Origin: Nitrospirota bacterium
Lineage (GTDB): Bacteria; Nitrospirota; Nitrospiria; Nitrospirales; Nitrospiraceae
Direction of reading: 5' to 3'
DNA: 64,000 nt
Assembly (NCBI GenBank): GCA_030684575.1
Contig: JAUXVD010000023.1
Coordinates: 124,001-188,000 of the forward strand
The notes beneath the pieces were generated by a model, which did no database searches, was not told where the DNA came from, and was given only the letters and a program-made list of their open reading frames with translations. A program made the translations under genes and the position numbers. Each line of letters begins with the position of its first letter. Position 1 is the first letter of the stretch. Positions 3,110-60,694 of this stretch are shown here, piece after piece.

Positions 3110-3778
3110 ATGGTAGAACCAGAGACACAGGATCATCCCATCCATGCTGAGGGAGCCCTCTTACCCTGGTATCTGAACGGCACTCTCCAGGAGGAGGAAC
3201 GCCGTCACGTTGACCAGCACCTTTCGTCCTGTGCCTCCTGTCGTGCGGAACTGGAGGAATTGGCTCAGCTGAATGTGCAGTTGCATGAAGTCTATGCGGC
3301 GCAGTCCGAACCGTCGATCAGGACTCAGCGAACAGTACGCGCACAAATCCAACGAGAGACCTCCGAGAAGGGCGCCAAGCCTATGACCGGTTCAGCATGG
3401 CTGGACGGGCTGGATGCTTGGTTCCGCTCTCTTTTTATTCCTCGATGGGCGCCCGCGCTTGCGGTCACGTTGCTCGTGGCTCAACTGGGATTGCTTCTGT
3501 GGAGTCTGACCCTGCCGACTCTGTCTGATCAGGTGACGACCAGGGGGCTTGGCGCGCCAACGGTCAAGCTGCGTGTGGTATTCCAGGAGACGGCATCTGC
3601 GCGACAGATTCGTATGCTCGTTCAAGGAGTGCATGGAAGAATCGTGGATGGGCCGGCTTTAGATGGCGCCTATATCATGGAGGTTCCAGCCGGGGACCAG
3701 GCTGCCGCACAGAAGAAGGTTGAGGCTCTGCGTAGCCAGCCTGAGAGTATTCGTACGGTTGAGCCGATGACACCGTGA
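3110..3778 (+). CDS. Membrane anti-sigma factor with zinc-finger domain
   Basis: 222 residues. The N-terminal zf-HC2-like anti-sigma domain shows the zinc motif H-x3-C-x2-C (H37, C41, C44 in HLSSCASC). One hydrophobic segment (about residues 115-140) would cross the inner membrane. The periplasmic C-terminal part (about 145-222) contains VQGVHGRIVDGP and a short alpha/beta fold seen in other Gram-negative anti-sigma factors. The ATG begins on the base after the sigma factor stop, as expected for a stoichiometric partner. It ends 89 bases before the caspase-like gene on the same strand. The cognate signal cannot be read from sequence. Confidence 0.9.
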   Translation: MVEPETQDHPIHAEGALLPWYLNGTLQEEERRHVDQHLSSCASCRAELEELAQLNVQLHEVYAAQSEPSIRTQRTVRAQIQRETSEKGAKPMTGSAWLDGLDAWFRSLFIPRWAPALAVTLLVAQLGLLLWSLTLPTLSDQVTTRGLGAPTVKLRVVFQETASARQIRMLVQGVHGRIVDGPALDGAYIMEVPAGDQAAAQKKVEALRSQPESIRTVEPMTP

Positions 3779-3867
3779 ACCTGAAGAAGCCGGCCTGCGA
3801 CTGACGTATAGATGAGACGTGCAGGGTGCCTCGTTTCCCGAGACCCCGTAGACGAAAGGCGATGTTG

Positions 3868-6105
3868 ATGAGAATCTCATTCTGGCCGCAACTGAGTGCG
3901 GTCATTCTGTGCACGACCCTGGGTGCCATTGGAGACAGCGGGGCATTGGCACAATCCGCAGCGACAGACAGTGGTTCCGGTGTGAAACGCGCGCTGCTGG
4001 TCGGCATCAATAAATATCAAGCCGTACCCAAGCTCCAAGGCTCGATCAACGATATTGAGACCATGCGGCAGATTCTGCTGACGCGTTGGGGATTTCCGGA
4101 GAGAAATATCAGCATCCTCAAGGATGACGCCGCGACGCGTGCCGGTATTCTGGCCGCATTGGAACAGTTGGTGAAGGAGACGGGGCCACAGGATACCGTG
4201 TATTTCCATTTTTCTGGCCATGGGTCGCAGGTGGAGGATTTGAACGGCGATGAAGAGGATGGCCTCGACGAGACCCTTGTCCCGCAAGATGGTCGTTCGG
4301 GAGATGTGCGGGATATCACGGATGATGAGTTGGATGCTGTGTTTGCCAGATTGCGCGCCAAGAACGCTTTCATTGTCTTGGACTCGTGCCACTCCGGTAC
4401 GGCGACCCGCTCACTGGATATCCGTACCAGATCGATTCCTCAAGATCACCGGGTCGATATCTATCGGAAGGCCGATCAGGCATCCGTCAAAACGCGAGCG
4501 GTGATCCCGGTCGTCACGTCCCGGTATGTGGTCATGAGCGGCGCTGCGTCCAATCAGGAAGCGCTCGATGGACCGGTTGATGGCCGCTATCATGGCTTTT
4601 TCACATTTGCCTTGGCACGGAGCCTGAGTACGGCAGGAGCAGGGGCGACGCCCCGCGATATTTTCGGAGGAGTCGAACGGGAACTGAAACGCATTCAGAC
4701 ACATTTCGGCCGCTCGTCCATGCCGGAACCGCAATTGGAAGCACCGCCGGATCTTCTGGAGAAAACCCTGTTCGGTGCGACGAGTGGAGGAACGGGCGTT
4801 GCCTCGCAGAGTCAGGCTTCTCGATTACCCTGGCTGGAGGTGCAGCCAGGCGTCGGCGGGCAGGTGACACTCATCAGCGGGGTGCTACTCGGTGCCGGGC
4901 CAGGATCAATGTGGACGTTATATCCGCCGGGGGAAGTCAATTTTCTACCGGGGAGAGCGCTCGCTGTCGCGACGGTGACACAGACATCCGGAAAGGATTC
5001 GCTCGCCAAGCTGCAGAAAGCTGAGAGTGCGATTCCAAAGGGTGCTCGAGCGGTGGCGCTGCTGCCTGCCGCAAGTGGAGAAAAAGTTCCCATCCGGATT
5101 GTCGATGTTCCTCACGAGCGCCGCACACATATCGAGGACATCCTCAAGAGGAACATCGCCGAGGTTGAACTAGTGGGGCAGGAGAAGACGGCTCGATTCC
5201 TGGTCGATACCAAGGGAAGCGACTTGCGCCTCCTTGCAGCTGACGGCCTGGAGGTGGTGGCGTCATTTTCGACGCTCGACGATCAATGGGGAGCCGGTCT
5301 GGCCCTGGTGGTCTCTCGCTCAGCGAATGCATCGGAATTGCTGTCGCTGGATAATCCCTCCACTCAATTGAAAATGAACGTTCGGGTCGTGAATGCCGCC
5401 GCGCACAAGCCAGCAGTCGGTACCCGTGGCATCGCAGTCGTGGCGGGGAATACGAAGCCGGCTCAGTACCGCATTCGACGGTCGAAAGAGACGCGGTCAG
5501 AGAAGAACAGTTTGCAATTGGAAGTCAGCGTGAGTGCCGATTCATACGTGACGATTGTGGATGTCGACTCAGAAGGCGGTGTCAATCTTCTGTTTCCCAA
5601 TAATTATCAGCAGCCCAGTTTTGTCACGGACGGGTTTGTCCGCGCCGGTGAGGCTGTCCTGATTCCTGACTCGCTCAAGCCCGGTAATCGTGCTGGCTTT
5701 TACTGGGACTACACCCCGCCGAAAGGCACGGATACCATTCGCGTCTTCACCAGTACAGATATCCAGACTGCCCAGATGCTTCGCCAGCGAGTGCAGACGC
5801 TTCAGAATACCGCAAGTCACACAAGCGGAGCGGTGAAGACCCGAGGGGTGGCTGCCGGCATCGGCAGCATCCGTCAGGATCTGGCCAAGATCGCCACGAG
5901 GGGGATTGTGACCGTGTACGATCCGTCCTCGCATGTGCCAGGCACTGCAATCGCTGATCAGTCTGAGCCCCCCTCAGCGGTGATGCCAGCGCCGGCAGAT
6001 CCTGTTGCGCTGACGCCGCCGTTGCCCTCAAGCGAACCGGTCATGCCAACTGCACCAGCGGCAGATTGGGCTGCGACCTCGGTGACGATTCTCGTGGAAG
6101 GGTGA
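3868..6105 (+). CDS. Secreted caspase-family (metacaspase) protease with DUF4384 domain
   Basis: The chosen ATG follows an AAAGG box by 8 bases and opens a signal peptide (MRISFWPQLSAVILC...ALAQ); an in-frame ATG at 3862 is possible. The peptidase C14 domain (about residues 38-290) has both catalytic motifs: His118 in HFSGHGS and Cys174 in VLDSCHSG. The acidic stretch NGDEEDGLDE after the His is typical of metacaspases, which prefer Arg/Lys at P1. After a middle region of unknown fold comes a DUF4384 domain (about 530-630, with YVTIVDVDSEGGVNLLFPN), then KTRG and ATRGIVTVYD motifs and a Pro/Ala-rich tail. Export to the periplasm or surface is predicted. Location behind an ECF sigma/anti-sigma pair suggests stress-induced expression (inference). 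Confidence 0.9.
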   Translation: MRISFWPQLSAVILCTTLGAIGDSGALAQSAATDSGSGVKRALLVGINKYQAVPKLQGSINDIETMRQILLTRWGFPERNISILKDDAATRAGILAALEQLVKETGPQDTVYFHFSGHGSQVEDLNGDEEDGLDETLVPQDGRSGDVRDITDDELDAVFARLRAKNAFIVLDSCHSGTATRSLDIRTRSIPQDHRVDIYRKADQASVKTRAVIPVVTSRYVVMSGAASNQEALDGPVDGRYHGFFTFALARSLSTAGAGATPRDIFGGVERELKRIQTHFGRSSMPEPQLEAPPDLLEKTLFGATSGGTGVASQSQASRLPWLEVQPGVGGQVTLISGVLLGAGPGSMWTLYPPGEVNFLPGRALAVATVTQTSGKDSLAKLQKAESAIPKGARAVALLPAASGEKVPIRIVDVPHERRTHIEDILKRNIAEVELVGQEKTARFLVDTKGSDLRLLAADGLEVVASFSTLDDQWGAGLALVVSRSANASELLSLDNPSTQLKMNVRVVNAAAHKPAVGTRGIAVVAGNTKPAQYRIRRSKETRSEKNSLQLEVSVSADSYVTIVDVDSEGGVNLLFPNNYQQPSFVTDGFVRAGEAVLIPDSLKPGNRAGFYWDYTPPKGTDTIRVFTSTDIQTAQMLRQRVQTLQNTASHTSGAVKTRGVAAGIGSIRQDLAKIATRGIVTVYDPSSHVPGTAIADQSEPPSAVMPAPADPVALTPPLPSSEPVMPTAPAADWAATSVTILVEG

Positions 6106-6401
6106 TGTGTTGGGTCGGTCCAGATCTGACGACTGAGGGCCAATAGTCATGGCGAGAGCAGACTTTGCCGCTTCGCTGATCCTTCCAGTTCCTGCCATCC
6201 ACTGACAGAGCCTGACTCCCGATCGCGGGGGTGTTTTGGTGTCTCTACCGGCTTTCGGGCTGCCCTGTAGGCGTGATCATGATGCTCGGAGCAGGTGTGG
6301 TCATGCAAGGTCTCACGCTCCACGAATTATGAAGCGTTTCCAGCACGGCATGATTCTCTGGTTGCTGTCGTCAGAAGAGAGAGCAGGGAAGAGATGTAAT
6401 G

Positions 6402-6477
6402 TGGTGCGCCCGACAGGACTTGAACCTGTAGCCTTCTGATCCGTAGTCAGATGCTCTATCCATTGAGCTACGGGCGC
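6402..6477 (-). tRNA. tRNA-Arg (anticodon ACG), CCA encoded
   Basis: Read on the minus strand the 76 bases fold into a full cloverleaf. The 7-bp acceptor stem is GCGCCCG/CGGGCGC and the D-arm is GCTC/GAGC. The anticodon stem is TCTGA/TCAGA with loop CTACGGA, giving anticodon ACG. The variable loop is AGGCT and the T-arm is ACAGG-TTCAAGT-CCTGT. A discriminator A and a genomically encoded CCA end follow. ACG (read as ICG after deamination) decodes CGU/CGC/CGA arginine codons. It sits alone between the caspase-like gene and an exported FN3 protein. Confidence 0.96.
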
Positions 6478-6615
6478 GTACGAGAAGCACAGTTTCACCG
6501 GGCCCCACGCGTTACGCTCTATCGAGCCATGCGGAGAATGAAGGGCGGTCGGATTACGCTGCAGACAGGGGTTATACAGGTGTCTGGCCTGGCGGGTCAA
6601 GGGATCGTAGAAACT

Positions 6616-7569
6616 TTAGAGTAGGGGCTTGCTCACTTCGGTGGAGCAGGCGCTTTCATTGCCTACATTGTCGAATGCACTGACGCAGAAATAGTACGTC
6701 CTGCCAACGGTGAGATTTGAGGCATTGTAGGCGGCTACAGACCCTAGTGTGATGGGAGGGTTGTACAGTTGTGATTGTGTCCCGATGTAGACCTTATATC
6801 CGGCTAGATCTGGTTCTGTGTTTGCGGTCCAGCTGAGACCAACGGATCCTGTCGTCGAGGTCGGCTGGCTGAGGGTGAGGGAGACAGGGATCTGTTGGGG
6901 AGAATTGGTGGCCCCTGAAGCGGTGACCGCGATGACGGTGCTGTACGTGCCTGCCGTTAGTCCTTGAATGTTCACACTCGCACTTACCTGATCGGTTTCC
7001 GTGGTGGTCGTGCCAGCCGAGGTATTGAGCGCCAACCAGGCGGCAGATTCCGTCATGCTCCACGTGAGCGTTCCACCGGTAGGGTTGAGCAGGTTCATGG
7101 TTCTTGCCAGGGGATTCGCTCCTCCCGCTGTGCCTGAAAAACTGAGGCTTGCCGGATTCAGAAGGATGCTGGGACTTGCCGTTGTCCCGCCGCCGGAGAC
7201 GATAAAGCTCACGGTAACGGACTCAGTCTCGAAGCGGCCATAGCGGTCTGCGATGGCGATCTGAACGGTGCTGGTGTAGGTGCCGGCCGAGAGGCCAAGC
7301 TGGTTCACTTGCATGGTTATCGTATCTTGCTCCCTTGAGATGGTTCCCGATGCCGGGGAGACTGCGAGCCAGGGCGAGGTTTCCGTCACTGTCCAATGCC
7401 TGGCCACGAGCGTCCTCTTTGAAAACCTTACGGATTGAGCCGGTGGGGTGGGCCCACCGGATGTCGCCGTAAAGGTGAGGGTACTGGGTGCATAGGAGAA
7501 GGCGAAGAGCGCAGATGGATCGAGAAGACTTACCGCAGCGATGGGCATCCAGAGCGCGAGAGAGAGCAT
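6616..7569 (-). CDS. Exported BACON/FN3-domain protein
   Basis: 317 residues. A hydrophobic N-terminus (ALWMPIAAVSLLDPSALFAF) is a probable signal peptide, though it lacks an obvious basic n-region. Two BACON-like beta domains follow (about residues 28-125 and 130-225), each with the W-x-x-x-E/S-x-x-x-WL pattern (WTVTETSPWLAV, WSMTESAAWLAL) and a later AGTY-strand. A fibronectin type III domain ends the protein (about 230-315: VGLSWTANTEPDLAGYKVYIG ... YYFCVSAFDNVGNES). BACON domains usually mediate carbohydrate or mucin contact; FN3 acts as a spacer. No catalytic domain is present. An in-frame stop four codons upstream restricts the start to this ATG or an internal one; no strong ribosome-binding site is seen. 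Confidence 0.8.
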   Translation of the reverse strand: MLSLALWMPIAAVSLLDPSALFAFSYAPSTLTFTATSGGPTPPAQSVRFSKRTLVARHWTVTETSPWLAVSPASGTISREQDTITMQVNQLGLSAGTYTSTVQIAIADRYGRFETESVTVSFIVSGGGTTASPSILLNPASLSFSGTAGGANPLARTMNLLNPTGGTLTWSMTESAAWLALNTSAGTTTTETDQVSASVNIQGLTAGTYSTVIAVTASGATNSPQQIPVSLTLSQPTSTTGSVGLSWTANTEPDLAGYKVYIGTQSQLYNPPITLGSVAAYNASNLTVGRTYYFCVSAFDNVGNESACSTEVSKPLL

Positions 7570-7999
7570 CGTCTTATAGTGTTACATGCTGTGCCGTCCG
7601 TCGTATTGTGTTAATGCGCGAGCGGGGTGACGTGGGTCATCCTGCCGGGTTGTTCAGTCTTCTTGACATGTTGGTTCAGCAATCGCTGTGCCACTGCAGA
7701 AAGAGAGAGGCATAAGACCAGGACAAGTCCTGTTTCTAGTGACTTAGGGTGAGGCGTCTGGAAACGGTTGCCTGAAATATTATGTAGAGATCGTACTGTG
7801 CCACCTTCAATTCATCGACTGTGGGGAGAGCAGTCTGTCTCGCGATGTTGTTCGTTGCATATCGTTGTAGGCGTGCCGTATGCGTCAGGATCCGTGCACC
7901 CGTCGGCCAAGAAAGAAAAAACGATGTTCAGATTTTCCTCTCTCAGGTAGGATGACGTCGGACTGTGGCCTGCGAAACTCACTAGGGAAGCTGTACGCG
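7570..7999. other. Intergenic stretch without recognisable gene
   Basis: About 430 bases between the divergent FN3-protein and small membrane-protein genes. Frames here are short and lack protein-like composition or a good start. It presumably holds the promoters of both neighbours, but no confident -35/-10 pair stands out. Confidence 0.5.
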
Positions 8000-33135: not shown

Positions 33136-33258
33136 GGGATGCTGAAAAAGGCCTCCAACTTCGTTCTCGGTTCGAAGAAATCCTCAACGTGCCCCTGAGG
33201 GTACGTCTCCGGTTTCTTCTCGCCTGCGGCCTTGCTGGACGGCCATTTTGAGCATCCC
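33136..33258. repeat. Family A palindromic repeat, copy 3
   Basis: Ends GGGATGCTGAAAAAGGCC and the complement of GGCCATTTTGAGCATCCC match at 16 of 18 positions. The core has AAATCCTCAACGTGCCCCTGAGGGTACGTCTCCGG. It lies inside the sulfur operon between cysK and the second E1-like gene, so it does not simply mark transcription ends. Confidence 0.85.
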
Positions 33259-40757: not shown

Positions 40758-41221
40758 CAGGATCCTGAAGAAGTCCGTCAGCGGCGTTCTCGCGTCGATC
40801 AAAGGCTGATGATCTTCTGTGCTCGCGCAAGGCTTGTCTGTCTGGTTGGCTGGATTTTCTGGTCTGTCTAGTTCTTCTGGATGAATGTGCAGTCCTCCCA
40901 AGCAAACAAACCAGAGAGACGCGATAGACCATCCCTGCGTCTCGCTCGACCCGCCAGTCTTGCACGTCTCACGTCACCGTCAGTGGACATGCGCAGTGGG
41001 AGACCACACCAGCCGTCTCGCTCGTGATCACGCTTCCCGATTAAAGGGGAGAGGGGTAACGAGCTAGCTGGGTGGGAACATTGATAACAGCATATCCTGT
41101 TCGCATCGATCAGATGAAACTGTTGCAAACCGCATAGAATCCCCTTAGAACTCGGCAACCTGACGAACGTTGATTCCATGCGTGATCGGTGCAGAGCCAT
41201 GGGATGTTGTCAGGCGAGGTG
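40758..41221. repeat. Intergenic stretch with nested A, B and C repeat fragments
   Basis: No gene is seen. From left: the left half of a family A element (CAGGATCCTGAAGAAGTCCG..., 40758-40800) joined to a family B start (CTGATGATCTTCTGTGCTCGCGCAA, 40806-40830), then a family C palindrome (40835-40930; arms TTGTCTGTCTGGTTGG and ACCAGAGAGACGCGATAGACC). The rest is unassigned. Confidence 0.7.
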
Positions 41222-44317: not shown

Positions 44318-44540
44318 GGGATGGAGGCTGATGATCTTCTTTGCTCGCGCAACGCGCGCCCTCAGACGGATGAGAGGGAAGCGGCCAGGTGCGCTCTTTA
44401 CTCGCAGAACGCGCACGATAAAACTGTGCTTGTCCGATGCGCGCAGTCGAGGGCAACCTTGGCCACTCCCCTAAAAAAGATGTGGTGAAAGTGAGGAGGT
44501 CCTCGTTGGACGCGAGCAATCGAGGATCGACCAGGCTACC
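44318..44540. repeat. Family B repeat cluster
   Basis: The 490-base gap between the AlkD-like and DUF3800-like genes holds no gene. It contains a family B start (GGGATGGAGGCTGATGATC, 44318), an internal B core (CTCGCAGAACGCGCACGATAAAACTGTGCTTGTCCGATGCGCGCAG, 44394-44450) and a further partial core (GGACGCGAGCAATCGAGG, 44498-44525). Confidence 0.65.
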
Positions 44541-47429: not shown

Positions 47430-47668
47430 GCGCGCGTCCAACGAGGGGAGTCCGCGACCGCGCGTTGAGCGAGCATAGGGAATTGCCAGGCCAGTCTTCT
47501 TTTTCCCCCGCCACATATTATTTAGGGGTGCGGCCAAGGTTGCCTTCGACTCGCGCATCGGACGAGCACATTCTGATTGTGCGCGTACCGCGAGCAGGAG
47601 GACGGCCATGCTACCCTTCTCCTCCCACGCGTTCCGCGAGCACAGGAGATCTTCAGGCTTCATCCCTT
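47430..47668. repeat. Family B repeat cluster (reverse orientation)
   Basis: The 320-base gap between the wHTH/HEPN module and the Tim44-like gene has no gene. It contains a partial B core (GCGCGCGTCCAACGAGG, 47431) and a fuller one (CGCATCGGACGAGCACATTCTGATTGTGCGCGTACCGCGAGCAGG, 47554-47600), then GCGTTCCGCGAGCACAGGAGATCTTCAGGCTTCATCCC (47629-47666). Confidence 0.7.
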
Positions 47669-49953: not shown

Positions 49954-51480
49954 CTACTTGTCCTCTACCTGATCCTCAGCCTCATCTTCCTTGTTAGATC
50001 GGCCGCTCTCATCGAACGGCGTTCCTATCGTCCCGTTAAAGTACGCGGTGGCTTTCCGCAAGGCCTGACGGCCGATCTTCCTGCCCATCTTTCGAGCTTG
50101 AAGGTCGCCATCAATAAAGTGGATGCCCCCGAAGCGGCGTGAAATTCCTGCTTCATTTGCCGCATCACTGAACTTTTTCCACGACAGCGTGATGTCATTC
50201 GCCGGCACCAACCCTGGCTCAACGCGAGACGACCCTGCAGGGATCGTCACTGAGAAACCAAAATGATCGCTGCCAGTGAACCCCTTCAACACACGAGCCG
50301 CTGAGGTGCTAAAGATACTGTGGCCGGACACGTACTCCGCAAACGGAGGAGTGACGAAAGTCGTTGCTTGATAGGGCTGCCATGCCGCACCGTCAATCAG
50401 GCGCGTACCCAACCCAGGCCCCGCCCAGGCCTTTACTTGTTGTCCGGCAAAAAGGAAATGAATCGCCGATACCGGCCTGACATAGTCAAACACCCGCTTC
50501 GCATGCCACGACGACACACTCGCATCGAGGACGGCGTTTGTCATGGCGAAGAACATCTTCACATCCTGATCCAAGGTGTGGTGATCGCGACGGGACACAA
50601 ACTGCGCACACAATGCCCAATGGCCAGGAGGCAGTTCTGAGCTAGGTCCGTCCGCCCAATATTCGGCAATGACCTTCTCACGGTCCGTCAAGTTCGCGCT
50701 GTAGGCGAGTACCTGTTTGGCCTGCTTGAGGTATTGCGCCGACTCTTGGGGGTAGAAATTGGGGTCTTTGGGAGAGAACTGATCTGCCGATCGCAGCGCG
50801 AACGGCACGACCTTCCCCCAATGTGGCGCAATGAACTTTTGCGTCACAAATCCTCCCTGCCCATTGCTGATTCGCAATGGCTGCCATCGATTGGGATCGT
50901 TGATGTGATCAGGATCGTTCACAGGCACATATCCCGTGTAATCGGCATAGGGGCCCGGCGCCAGATCGCCCAATTGGTTGGACCCATCATGATGACGGAA
51001 GGCCAACACCGCTTGGCAGGCTACATTTCCAACCCCCGAAGCCGTGTGTGTATCTGTCGATCGGTCAGTCGGATCGAACCCCATCTCCGCCATCACGAGG
51101 TCGAATTTGGCCTGCTCGGTTGGGAACAGATCGACGAGGGCCCGATAGGCAGCAAAGCTCACCGCTTTTTTCTTGTTGGCTTCGGTACGTTCTGCAACCG
51201 GCTGGCGAAGTGTCTTTCCGAGTTGCGTGCCAACAGCCAGGGCGTCGTAGGGAGCCCAAGCGTCATAGATACAGGTGTGTGTCACGGCGAGCATCCGCGC
51301 CACGATCGGCGGTCCCGGATGCGTATCGCGAATTGCCTGCAGCGTCACATCGTTCCATCTGACGATCACCGTATCCGCAGCCTGTGCCGCGGCATCTGCA
51401 GCTTGCGCCACGGACATCGACCCGAGGGCCCATAAACCCGCACTGAATATGGCAACGACTTGATACGACCATTTCCTCAT
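49954..51480 (-). CDS. Vanadium-dependent haloperoxidase (PAP2-superfamily)
   Basis: 508 residues from MRKWSYQVVAIFS, a signal peptide start (an ATG five codons earlier is possible). The vanadate site motifs are visible: RVFDYVRPVSAIHF, PPFAEYVSGHSIFSTSAARVL (the PSGH-type motif with catalytic His) and GISRRFGGIHFIDGDLQARKMGRKIG (His/Arg contacts). This layout fits bacterial vanadium-dependent haloperoxidases, which oxidise halides with hydrogen peroxide, and the related PAP2 acid phosphatases. Export to the periplasm is predicted. An animal-type peroxidase gene lies about 3.7 kb away. Halide or phosphatase preference is unclear. Confidence 0.87.
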   Translation of the reverse strand: MRKWSYQVVAIFSAGLWALGSMSVAQAADAAAQAADTVIVRWNDVTLQAIRDTHPGPPIVARMLAVTHTCIYDAWAPYDALAVGTQLGKTLRQPVAERTEANKKKAVSFAAYRALVDLFPTEQAKFDLVMAEMGFDPTDRSTDTHTASGVGNVACQAVLAFRHHDGSNQLGDLAPGPYADYTGYVPVNDPDHINDPNRWQPLRISNGQGGFVTQKFIAPHWGKVVPFALRSADQFSPKDPNFYPQESAQYLKQAKQVLAYSANLTDREKVIAEYWADGPSSELPPGHWALCAQFVSRRDHHTLDQDVKMFFAMTNAVLDASVSSWHAKRVFDYVRPVSAIHFLFAGQQVKAWAGPGLGTRLIDGAAWQPYQATTFVTPPFAEYVSGHSIFSTSAARVLKGFTGSDHFGFSVTIPAGSSRVEPGLVPANDITLSWKKFSDAANEAGISRRFGGIHFIDGDLQARKMGRKIGRQALRKATAYFNGTIGTPFDESGRSNKEDEAEDQVEDK

Positions 51481-51610
51481 GTGCCATCCCTTCATGAAAA
51501 CTATAAATAACAGGGGTCACATCAGCGAAATCCATGCGCAACGAGCACGAAAATATCGCAATGCCCATGCCACTCATAGCGAAATACTGATTGCTATAAC
51601 AGGTGAGAAA

Positions 51611-51718
51611 GCAACAACTGTGCCTCTCGATGATTCAGTAAACGTTGAGCAACATCAGTCACCTGGCTCTCCACCCCGTGATGCCGGTATGTAGGAATAT
51701 GTAGAAGAGGGGAGTCAG
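51611..51718. repeat. Duplicated upstream segment, copy S1
   Basis: 108 bases that align without gaps to 52600-52707 at roughly 70% identity by hand count (shared CAACATCAGT, GTATGTAGGAA, GAGTCAG). On the minus strand it contains a direct repeat CTACA-N7-CTACA-like pair (CTACATATTCCTACATACC) ahead of the haloperoxidase gene. The gene-free gap 51481-52025 also holds an mlaC relic and B/C repeats. Confidence 0.7.
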
Positions 51719-51729
51719 CCTACACTGAC

Positions 51730-51799
51730 AATGCGGAGGTGAAGCAGTAGAACCGCTTCGTGGAACGACGCCAACTGATCAATCTGGTGGTTCGAGCGT
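51730..51799 (+). pseudogene. mlaC relic (about 70 bp fragment)
   Basis: AATGCGGAGGTGAAGCAG...GGAACGACGCCAACTGATC matches the mlaC gene interior (from about 53329: AATGCGGAGGTGAAACAG...GGAACGACGTCACATGATC). Translated it reads D-N-A-E-V-K-Q then a TAG stop. It directly follows segment S1, whose sister S2 lies upstream of intact mlaC, so this is what is left of a duplicated block. Confidence 0.7.
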
Positions 51800-51837
51800 A
51801 CTTGCCATCTCCCAGGGATGATGGCGGATTTATCTAG

Positions 51838-51957
51838 CCTGTTTCGTGGGTCTGGTTGTTATGGTTGATCTCGTTTGTTTGGTTGTTGAACCAGAGAAAC
51901 CTGCCGTGCTCGTGACGCGAGCACAGAAGATCATCAGCCTCCATCCCGTAGTTCGTC
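51838..51957. repeat. Adjacent family C and family B repeats
   Basis: A short family C palindrome (GGTCTGGTTGTTATGGTTGATC ... TTGAACCAGAGAAACC, 51848-51902) is joined to a family B end (GCTCGTGACGCGAGCACAGAAGATCATCAGCCTCCATCCC, 51908-51947). This is the reverse-complement order of the B-C junctions at 40803 and 41741. Confidence 0.65.
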
Positions 51958-52025
51958 GCTCACGAGACAGGCTTCACGAGAAACGGGACGTCGTAGGGGC
52001 GCTGCTGTGGGTAGGGAACGATGGA

Positions 52026-52529
52026 TCAGTGAACGAGTTCGTCTGTCTCAACGTTGTGCGCGAGCTGCTTGTAGTCCGATTCCCGTTCCGCAAGGCGGAG
52101 GCCTGCGTTGTTGTGCCGGATGGCCTGGCTGGGTATCCCGTTGCTGTGCTGGGAGGATTCTTCGGCCTTAGGGCTGTGGCCCATGTCTGCGAAGCCTTTG
52201 AAATAGGCTCCGTCTTCGATTGAGAAGGCCGGGGTATGGACGTCGCCGATCTGCACGGCGGTCTTGAGAAGTTGGACTTTGTCGACCGCGGCCACGGTGC
52301 CTTGAATCTTCCCGCTGCTGAGTAACGTGCCGACCGAGACGGTCCCCCGGATCTCCGCATGTTCGCCGACGACGAGCACTCCCGTGGTGTGAATCTCGCC
52401 TTCCACGCATCCGTCGAGTTGGACGGTGCCTTCAAAATAGACAATGCCTTTGAACGTGACGTCTTTGCCCAGGACGGTAAAATTCTCGGCATCGCTCTGC
52501 TTATTCTTCGGTTTCTTGGTGTCCCACAT
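52026..52529 (-). CDS. Bactofilin family cytoskeletal protein
   Basis: 167 residues. The central beta-helix domain (about residues 18-120) has the short-strand repeats of bactofilins: TVLGKDVTFKGIVYFEGTVQLDGCVEGEI, LVVGEHAEIRGTVSVGTLLSSGKIQGTVAAVDKVQL, GDVHTPAFSIEDGAYFKG. Bactofilins polymerise without nucleotide, often near the membrane, and help cell shape or peptidoglycan enzyme placement. No M23 peptidase gene is adjacent as is common. The C-terminal tail is polar. Confidence 0.9.
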   Translation of the reverse strand: MWDTKKPKNKQSDAENFTVLGKDVTFKGIVYFEGTVQLDGCVEGEIHTTGVLVVGEHAEIRGTVSVGTLLSSGKIQGTVAAVDKVQLLKTAVQIGDVHTPAFSIEDGAYFKGFADMGHSPKAEESSQHSNGIPSQAIRHNNAGLRLAERESDYKQLAHNVETDELVH

Positions 52530-52599
52530 GGTGATGCTCCTTGATGATTTCGAATGACGGCTTGTGACGGATATCGGATATGTAATACGGACTGAATGA

Positions 52600-52707
52600 G
52601 CAACAGTCGTGCCTTCAGCCGATTCGAAAAATCTTCAACAACATCAGTGGTCTGACTCGTCCCAGCGCGAGGTCTGTATGTAGGAACCTGTAGGGGAGGA
52701 GAGTCAG
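52600..52707. repeat. Duplicated upstream segment, copy S2
   Basis: Sister of 51611-51718. Its minus strand has CTACAGGTTCCTACATAC (two CTACA units 10 bases apart) ahead of the bactofilin gene, and its plus strand lies upstream of mlaC. It could hold an operator shared by the haloperoxidase and bactofilin genes, or be a duplication scar. Confidence 0.65.
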
Positions 52708-52752
52708 TTCGCAGGCAAGAGGCTGGTGTGGAGCAGGCGATAGCGTTTCTTC

Positions 52753-53136
52753 TTAGGCCAGCTTTGAGGTCACAATGTGTGACCGTAAACCGTTCATTAC
52801 GTCTTTCACGATCTGTGGGCCTAGTTCCATTGACGCGAGATCTGCTGGCCTGGCCAAACGGAGAAACCATGGAAACCAGCTCTCTATTTCCTCCAGACAC
52901 TGAAGCGTTTGGGCGACAGCAAGGTTCGTTTGTGCGCCTTCTGCCACAGTGCCCAATAGCCCCCAGTACCTGTCTTTAGTAAGGTGCTCCTCTCGGCTAG
53001 CTCTATGTGCATGGCTTTGTTGGTCTTTTCCCATTCTGACCAGGGAGACTTCTCGGTGTAGCTGTCCAGCATAGGTCTTGCTGTATGTCACTGGGCAGAG
53101 ACTGGTACATGCCGACAGGATTGAGGAGGGCATCAC
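52753..53136 (-). CDS. Possible small protein or gene remnant
   Basis: An open frame of up to 127 codons; the part from about residue 50 on (GLLGTVAEGAQTNLAVAQTLQCLEEIESWFPWFLRLARPADLASMELGP) looks protein-like, but no good ribosome-binding site precedes any ATG, and a different frame on the same strand (start near 53072) also looks protein-like in its first 40 codons. This could be a frameshifted remnant. No family recognised. Confidence 0.3.
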   Translation of the reverse strand: MMPSSILSACTSLCPVTYSKTYAGQLHREVSLVRMGKDQQSHAHRASREEHLTKDRYWGLLGTVAEGAQTNLAVAQTLQCLEEIESWFPWFLRLARPADLASMELGPQIVKDVMNGLRSHIVTSKLA

Positions 53137-53823
53137 ATGGAACAGATATTAGACACAGCCGTCAGTCAGGGTTCTCGCAGTGTCGAATCGAGCAAGGGCT
53201 TAGGGTGGGCGGCGATCACCGGGATAGTGGCGCTCCTGACGCTGCCCTGCACTGGTGCGTTGGCTGCTGAGCTGACCCCGACGGAATCGGTGAAGAGCAC
53301 GATCGCTGAAGTGGTTCGTATCCTCGATAATGCGGAGGTGAAACAGCCAAGCCGCTCCTTGGAACGACGTCACATGATCGAGCAGGTGGTGCGGGATCGT
53401 GTGAGTTATGAAGACATGGCGAAACGAGCGCTGGGGGTACCCTGGACAGACTTGACGGATAATGAACGGCGTGAATTCGTCGATCTCTTCGTGCAACTGC
53501 TCCGAGACACGTTTGCCGGCAGGATCGATTCGTATGCGGGCGAGCAGGTGGTCTATCTGTCCGAACAGCGCGAGGAGCAGTTCGCCGAAGTGAAGACGCG
53601 GTTGGCGGGACACAAGATGGATACGCTCCTCGATTTCCGGTTGGCGAACCGGTTCGGCAATTGGCTCGTCTACGATGTGGTCATCGATGGGGCGAGCATT
53701 GTTGGAAATTACCATGCGCAGTTCACCAGCATTATCCGCGACCTCACCTATGCCGGGTTGGTGAAACGGATGAAAGAGAAGACACTCGTCGCCAAAGCGT
53801 TTGAAGTGACCGCGGCGCACTAG
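53137..53823 (+). CDS. mlaC: MlaC/Ttg2D-family periplasmic phospholipid-binding protein
   Basis: 228 residues with GAGGAGGG before the ATG. A hydrophobic export segment (about residues 22-45, GWAAITGIVALLTLPCTGALAAE) precedes the MlaC domain: LTPTESVKSTIAEVVRILD, RDRVSYEDMAKRALGVPWTDLTDNERREFVDLFVQLLRDTF, and NWLVYDVVIDGASIVGNYHAQFTSIIRDLTYAGLVKRMKEK. MlaC ferries phospholipid between the outer membrane and the MlaFEDB ABC complex. No mlaE, mlaF, mlaD or mlaB is near, so it is an orphan copy. The relic at 51.7 kb shows that it was once duplicated. Confidence 0.88.
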   Translation: MEQILDTAVSQGSRSVESSKGLGWAAITGIVALLTLPCTGALAAELTPTESVKSTIAEVVRILDNAEVKQPSRSLERRHMIEQVVRDRVSYEDMAKRALGVPWTDLTDNERREFVDLFVQLLRDTFAGRIDSYAGEQVVYLSEQREEQFAEVKTRLAGHKMDTLLDFRLANRFGNWLVYDVVIDGASIVGNYHAQFTSIIRDLTYAGLVKRMKEKTLVAKAFEVTAAH

Positions 53824-53891: not shown

Positions 53892-53988
53892 GGGATGGGG
53901 GTTGATTGATCTTTCACTGCGCGCGTCGAACGAGCACATTCTTATCGTGCGCGTTCCGCGAGCACAGAAGATCATCAGCCTCCATCCC
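53892..53988. repeat. Family B repeat, fullest copy with terminal inverted repeats
   Basis: Left end GGGATGGGGGTTGATTGATC pairs with the complement of the right end GATCATCAGCCTCCATCCC; the core has GCGCGTCGAACGAGCACATTC and GTGCGCGTTCCGCGAGCACAGA. This is the reference copy for family B in the window. Confidence 0.8.
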
Positions 53989-54838: not shown

Positions 54839-55155
54839 GCCCAAACATGTTGCACTTGGTGTTTGTGTGCAGCCTAGTTATATCGATGGATGCCTCGTTT
54901 TTCTCCTGCAGTTCTCTGCCTACAGTCATTCATGTCCTGGATTAGTCCCTTGACTGACATGAAGGGGTTGGATTACGTAGGTCTATGAAAAACAACGAGC
55001 GGTAGTTTTGCCTTCGCAAGAGCCTACGCGGCATGCCAGTTGCTCATCTGTTGCTCAATAATAGCGAGAACAACTATTTGAATCCTAAACCGTCCTGCTC
55101 TCTGAGATTGCCGCTGCGGTTGAGTGGGGGGTAGAGGGACTACATGGAGGGTCTG

Positions 55156-60567: not shown

Positions 60568-60694
60568 GCAGGATGTTGAAAAAGCCCGCAGGCTTCGTTC
60601 TCAGTTCGTCGAAATCCTCAACGTACCCCTGAGGGTATGCCTCCGGTTTCGACTCGCCTGCGGCCTCGCTGGACGGACTGTTTGACCATCCTGC
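60568..60694. repeat. Family A palindromic repeat, copy 4 (127 bp)
   Basis: Ends GCAGGATGTTGAAAAAG and the complement of CTGTTTGACCATCCTGC; core AAATCCTCAACGTACCCCTGAGGGTATGCCTCCGG. It abuts the start codon of the DUF5069 gene. Confidence 0.85.

Follow-up and report, generated by a model that had tools for sequence, protein, structure and literature searches.

The window analysed here is a stretch of 64,000 nucleotides from a contig of a Nitrospirota bacterium of the family Nitrospiraceae (JAUXVD010000023.1, positions 124,001 to 188,000). From left to right, the locus studied carries a haloperoxidase-like gene on the minus strand, a segment called S1, a relic of mlaC, a bactofilin gene on the minus strand, a second copy of the segment (S2) and an intact mlaC gene on the plus strand. 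Because of this order, each copy of the segment (S) lies 5' of a minus-strand gene. The genome of the window (3.79 Mb) is referred to as G000, and other genomes of the genus are given further G-numbers. The features of the locus are the following:

49954-51480, minus strand: vanadium-haloperoxidase-like gene (open reading frame from 51495; the start at 51480 was judged likelier by eye)
51557-51572, minus strand: second sigma54-like site, in the haloperoxidase leader, TGGCATGGGCATTGCG; GG lost in G028
51604-51718, minus strand: S1, putatively duplicated sigma54-type promoter region 5' of the haloperoxidase gene (ungapped match to S2, profile match)
51610-51625, minus strand: predicted -24/-12 core of S1, AGGCACAGTTGTTGCT, GG-N10-GC
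51700-51717, minus strand: upstream dyad of S1, TGA-N12-ACA, at about -117
51719-51726: junction between S1 and the mlaC relic, 8 bases in place of 618 (52708-53325) in the intact block; common to G028
51727-51794, plus strand: mlaC relic, in frame, with TAG at 51748-51750 (match to mlaC)
51905-51947, plus strand: dispersed hairpin repeat outside the duplication (genome-wide matches)
52026-52529, minus strand: bactofilin gene (Pfam Bactofilin and relatives)
52593-52707, minus strand: S2, predicted native sigma54-type promoter region of the bactofilin gene (copies in relatives)
52599-52614, minus strand: predicted -24/-12 core of S2, AGGCACGACTGTTGCT, 70 bases 5' of the bactofilin start
52689-52706, minus strand: upstream dyad of S2, TGA-N12-ACA, at about -117
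53137-53823, plus strand: intact mlaC (Pfam MlaC); the relic matches its positions 53326-53393

A repeated segment and a relic of mlaC

S1 (51611-51718) and S2 (52600-52707) align without gaps over 108 bases, 75 of which are identical, and their local alignment score of 84 compares with 32 for the best of 1000 mononucleotide shuffles. Beyond S1 lie the 68 bases of the relic, which are 78% identical to the corresponding part of the intact mlaC gene and 82-84% identical to mlaC of G027, G028 and G014, and which read in the mlaC frame up to an in-frame TAG. The ungapped repeat, the mlaC fragment with a stop after its first copy and the intact mlaC gene beyond its second had all been described in the original prediction, made from the letters of the window, and they are borne out here. 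The prediction went on to propose that a block including mlaC had been duplicated and that one copy had decayed, and this proposal stands in part. The S and mlaC parts are each present twice, in the same order and on the same strands. G028 contains S1, relic, S2 and mlaC in identical order; the relic stop is common to both genomes, and the junction after S1 is the same apart from one base change and one gap of 1 base. Continuous homology between the two blocks was not found, 618 bases of the intact block being represented by just 8 in the decayed copy, so that a continuous duplicated block is putative; the missing bases fit a later deletion common to G000 and G028. The part of the proposal that does not hold is the ownership of the segment, since S appears to be a bactofilin promoter and not part of an mlaC unit (see below).

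At its other end, S1 can be followed as far as 51610 by local alignment with S2 and as far as 51604 by the profile. The predicted transcription start lies close by, and further on the two leaders align poorly with each other. S1 was aligned with four other copies, and its match to the profile is by construction.

A further match of 43 bases, between 51905-51947 and 53946-53988, was considered as a further line of evidence for the duplication and dropped, as it belongs to a dispersed element that recurs at 24 or more other positions of the genome (E up to 1; 40 of 44 candidates scored). The element consists of a short hairpin, CGTGCTCG / CGAGCAC, followed by AGAAGATCATCAGCCTCCATCC, and is also found in relatives; within the window it occurs at 51905-51947, 53946-53988, 44319-44348, 47636-47665 and 40797-40826.

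The S segment and the bactofilin gene

The distribution of S among relatives links it to one bactofilin gene. A DNA search with S2 in 32 genomes of the genus gave matches in three (G000, G027 and G028), and a five-copy profile added G022 (E 9e-14), the matches in nine other genomes being weak (E 0.03 to 0.4) and taken as chance. With a six-copy profile, S was found in 12 of 175 genomes of the family, 4 from the same genus and 8 from a second one, and was not found in the other 163 at E 0.05 with stricter filters than in the genus search. In all four genomes of the genus S lies 5' of the bactofilin gene and on its strand, and in the second genus it lies directly 5' of a bactofilin gene in 7 of the 8 matches, these bactofilins being 55-68% identical to that of the window; for the eighth match, a weak one (L200), no bactofilin match was found in the locus. 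mlaC does not share this linkage: in G022 it is on a different contig from S, and it was not found beyond S in 1.4 kb of G022 or in the 0.9 to 1.5 kb searched in the second-genus loci. S was likewise not found at sixteen loci with other bactofilins. Since S stands upstream of this particular bactofilin gene across relatives, we read it as the promoter region of that gene: S2 is the predicted native copy, and S belongs to bactofilin and not to mlaC.

Conservation of S2 is consistent with this assignment. A comparison of G000 with G028 shows 12 differences in the 115 bases of S2 and 87 in the 428 bases of the spacer between S2 and mlaC (p 0.014); the core and distal part of S2 together have only 2 in 50 (p 0.003, for sub-blocks chosen after the fact).

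These data also bear on the idea that S1 and S2 belong to a dispersed repeat or a mobile element that has nothing to do with either gene, like the element at 51905-51947 close by, which truly is one. In a sequence search of G000, S1 and S2 are the only places with E < 0.01; seven more short places gave E 0.016 to 4.3, and inspection of two of them (L003 and L004) revealed no -12 element. G027 and G022 have a single match each, and as in seven genomes of the second genus the one copy is at bactofilin, which makes a dispersed repeat extremely improbable.

The minus-strand sequence of S closes with GGCAC-N3-TGTTGCT, in agreement with the sigma54 -24/-12 consensus tGGcacg / tTGCt as quoted in PMC4641369. 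All 13 copies compared (11 at bactofilin and the two S1 copies, the weak match L200 being left out) have a GG-N10-GC core in the orientation of the gene, a count to be read with the retrieval by S profiles in mind, which favours a kept core. The distance from core to start codon is about 43 to 76 bases in the 11 bactofilin-linked copies and 131 bases from the S1 core to the haloperoxidase start at 51480. We scanned for sigma54-like sites with a score table. In the window, five sites reached at least 21.5 points, against 1.5 sites in simulated sequence, among them S1, S2 and the haloperoxidase-leader site; below 21.5 points there was no excess over chance. Of 4000 random stretches of 410 bases from 11 related loci, 0.5% reached the score of the core, 22. 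The genome has one match to Sigma54_DBD, in rpoN (E 1.4e-55). Searches of 51400-53200 for sigma70 promoters and terminators gave 1 and 0, against 0.8 and 1.3 in shuffles. By these features S is a sigma54-type promoter with a GG-N10-GC core, and its dependence on sigma54 is predicted.

Two other sites of the window are recorded here. One, of 22 points, lies at 55029-55044, 5' of a gene for a haem peroxidase of the animal type (at 55144); this gene was rejected as a regulon member, none of 11 orthologue loci having a site above 19.5. The other, a full-score site on the minus strand at 7678-7693, lies 5' of a gene for a BACON/fn3 protein (6616-7569).

Upstream of the core, a dyad TGW-N12-ACR is found at -115 to -118 in 13 of 13 copies (counting the core GG as -24), and anywhere in 7.7% of random 110-base stretches. 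The strict form TGT-N12-ACA stands at the dyad position in six of the 13 (G022 and L195-L199), and G027 has it elsewhere, at -99. In L196, L198, L199 and L201 the dyad is outside the profile-matched stretch. These figures are descriptive, because the motif was found after the fact in these same sequences and the copies were obtained via S profiles. The place and symmetry of the dyad suggest a candidate site for an activator of the sigma54 kind.

Short inverted repeats are visible in S, as would be expected if it were a structured RNA element or riboswitch. The fold z-scores of the two copies on both strands (-0.26, 0.43, 1.56 and 0.87), the lack of any Rfam match in S and its position upstream of the predicted transcription starts all speak against this reading, which we hold to be very improbable.

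S thus resembles enhancer-dependent promoters of the sigma54 (RpoN) class in its -24/-12 core, its GG-N10-GC spacing and the presence of rpoN, and the dyad about 90 bases further upstream of the core is a candidate counterpart of their enhancer. It differs from the known ones in its predicted targets, bactofilin and a haloperoxidase. In operation, the GG-N10-GC core would be the binding site of RNA polymerase with sigma54, and an enhancer-binding protein seated on the TGW-N12-ACR dyad near -116 would open the promoter through a DNA loop. A conserved promoter of this predicted type, with a nearly fixed dyad, in front of bactofilin in two genera of one family offers a handle for the activator.

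The haloperoxidase gene and its upstream copy

The product of the gene downstream of S1 has matches above cut-off to Pfam DUF6851 and VCPO_2nd. The haloperoxidase motifs K-x6-RP and SGH are present, and SR-x5-H-x3-D, which we take to be the third active-site motif, was unmatched in that form. Its solved relatives include NapH1 and NapH3 (PDB 9l8x and 9ptr; about 390 to 430 residues); with these vanadium-dependent haloperoxidases it shares VCPO_2nd, K-x6-RP and SGH, a likeness read from sequence. The G028 protein is 94% identical.

According to the original prediction, the haloperoxidase and bactofilin genes now use the two upstream copies. This is well supported for bactofilin and plausible for the haloperoxidase, so that the claim is right in outline and partly supported; what is added here is the nature of the segment, the gene that owns it and how it probably works. 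For the haloperoxidase, the comparison of G000 with G028 is informative. S1 is 82% identical between them, S2 90%, the relic 88% and the haloperoxidase leader 93%. Within S1, the distal 32 bases are only 72% alike, and the nine changes that they contain all miss the dyad half-sites (an after-the-fact reading), while 17 of 18 bases of the core are kept.

The better preservation of the leader could mean that S1 is a fossil, copied with mlaC and decaying like the relic, and that the haloperoxidase uses a promoter of its own in the leader (51496-51603). The leader does contain a sigma54-like site at 51572, closer to the gene than S1 and with 22.5 points against 22.0 for S1, but G028 has GA in place of its GG, whereas the core and the dyad half-sites of S1 are retained in both genomes. 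A haloperoxidase homologue in another locus (L093) lacks S and has its sigma54-like site at -86; the 21 points of that site are about the chance level among 22 loci scanned over 700 bases, and it was also discarded as evidence for a regulon. Taken together, a fossil S1 seems unlikely to us, and we think that the haloperoxidase gene does, with fair probability, use S1. The haloperoxidase is then probably under the same switch as bactofilin.

Promoter capture by duplication is reportedly known from citT in long-term E. coli lines. As in that case, a duplication here would have set an existing promoter before another gene; unlike it, the present event is older, decayed and found in two species-level genomes, and the promoter appears to be of the enhancer-dependent kind, so that control would come with the copy. 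The scrap of mlaC would thus be a marker showing that a whole enhancer-dependent promoter was copied to another gene, probably bringing its signal with it, and the locus may be a compact and legible example of how a bacterium rewires a gene through promoter copying. Judged by titles and the openings of abstracts, none of the papers listed on bactofilin with sigma54 or RpoN, or on Nitrospira with bactofilin, haloperoxidase or sigma54 (for the last, 8 of 19), describes this arrangement, and no match was found on promoter duplication and rewiring.

Origin and age of the copied segment

We regard it as likely that the bactofilin gene has S as its sigma54-type promoter and enhancer region and that S1 is a copy of S, carrying a remnant of mlaC and joined to the haloperoxidase leader. 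An ancestor of G000 and G028 would have undergone a duplication that took in S plus the start of the diverging mlaC gene, and the copy would have been set down so that its predicted transcription start abutted the leader. The copied mlaC would then have decayed, losing about 610 bases to a deletion as well as its 3' part and acquiring a stop, with the promoter core and the dyad half-sites retained in S1. The haloperoxidase would thereby most likely be expressed under the signal of bactofilin.

Relatives lacking the duplication were compared. G027 has one S, bactofilin and mlaC, and neither S1 nor the relic was found in it. In G027 and 29 other genomes of the genus, relatives of the haloperoxidase reached at most 30% identity at E 1e-20, and the nearest one outside is 75% identical, in an assembly named Nitrospira sp. 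A tree of S unites the three S2 copies (94%) and leaves the S1 copies outside, with G022 among the latter at only 45%. Such a pattern would also be expected if the haloperoxidase, S1 and the mlaC relic had been imported together by recombination from another lineage and not duplicated in place. No donor was found: the 59 haloperoxidase loci compared, all of named genomes, include just one with S, mlaC or bactofilin, the G028 contig (L092), and the deep S1 branch may instead reflect faster evolution after loss of constraint. We consider import possible though doubtful; it concerns the origin of the copy and is compatible with the promoter reading.

The tree of S can thus be explained by a duplication before the split of G000, G027 and G028 followed by loss in G027, by import of a cassette, or by faster evolution of S1. 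The order of the three genomes does not decide the matter: FastTree supports one order (0.845), IQ-TREE another (54%), and single loci disagree; these species trees were built from three joined alignments, with bactofilin missing for G018 and with G014 left out, its mlaC being at a contig end. Since S1 lies outside the three S2 copies and the species orders conflict, the absence from G027 need not date the duplication.

G027 differs from the window in two further respects. In its locus L048, a DUF433/DUF5615 pair (3754-4388) is found to the left of bactofilin, and S and mlaC are separated by a GNAT/TacA1-like toxin-antitoxin pair (5513-6558); neither is at that place in the window.

Tentatively, a Nitrospiraceae enhancer-binding protein reading a CTGW-N12-ACA dyad might control a small regulon, consisting of bactofilin and, later, the haloperoxidase through promoter duplication. 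If so, a cell-envelope scaffold and a halide-oxidising enzyme would be made together.

Elsewhere in the window, a repeat of about 120 bases at 33137-33257 and 60571-60691, without an Rfam family, makes up most of the matches listed (at least 31 to 42 per genome) in six genomes of the genus. Finally, positions 3826-6105 encode a caspase-like (Peptidase_C14) protein with a DUF4384 domain, and its neighbours are a gene for a zf-HC2 protein (3110-3778) and a further gene with DUF4384 (613-2349).
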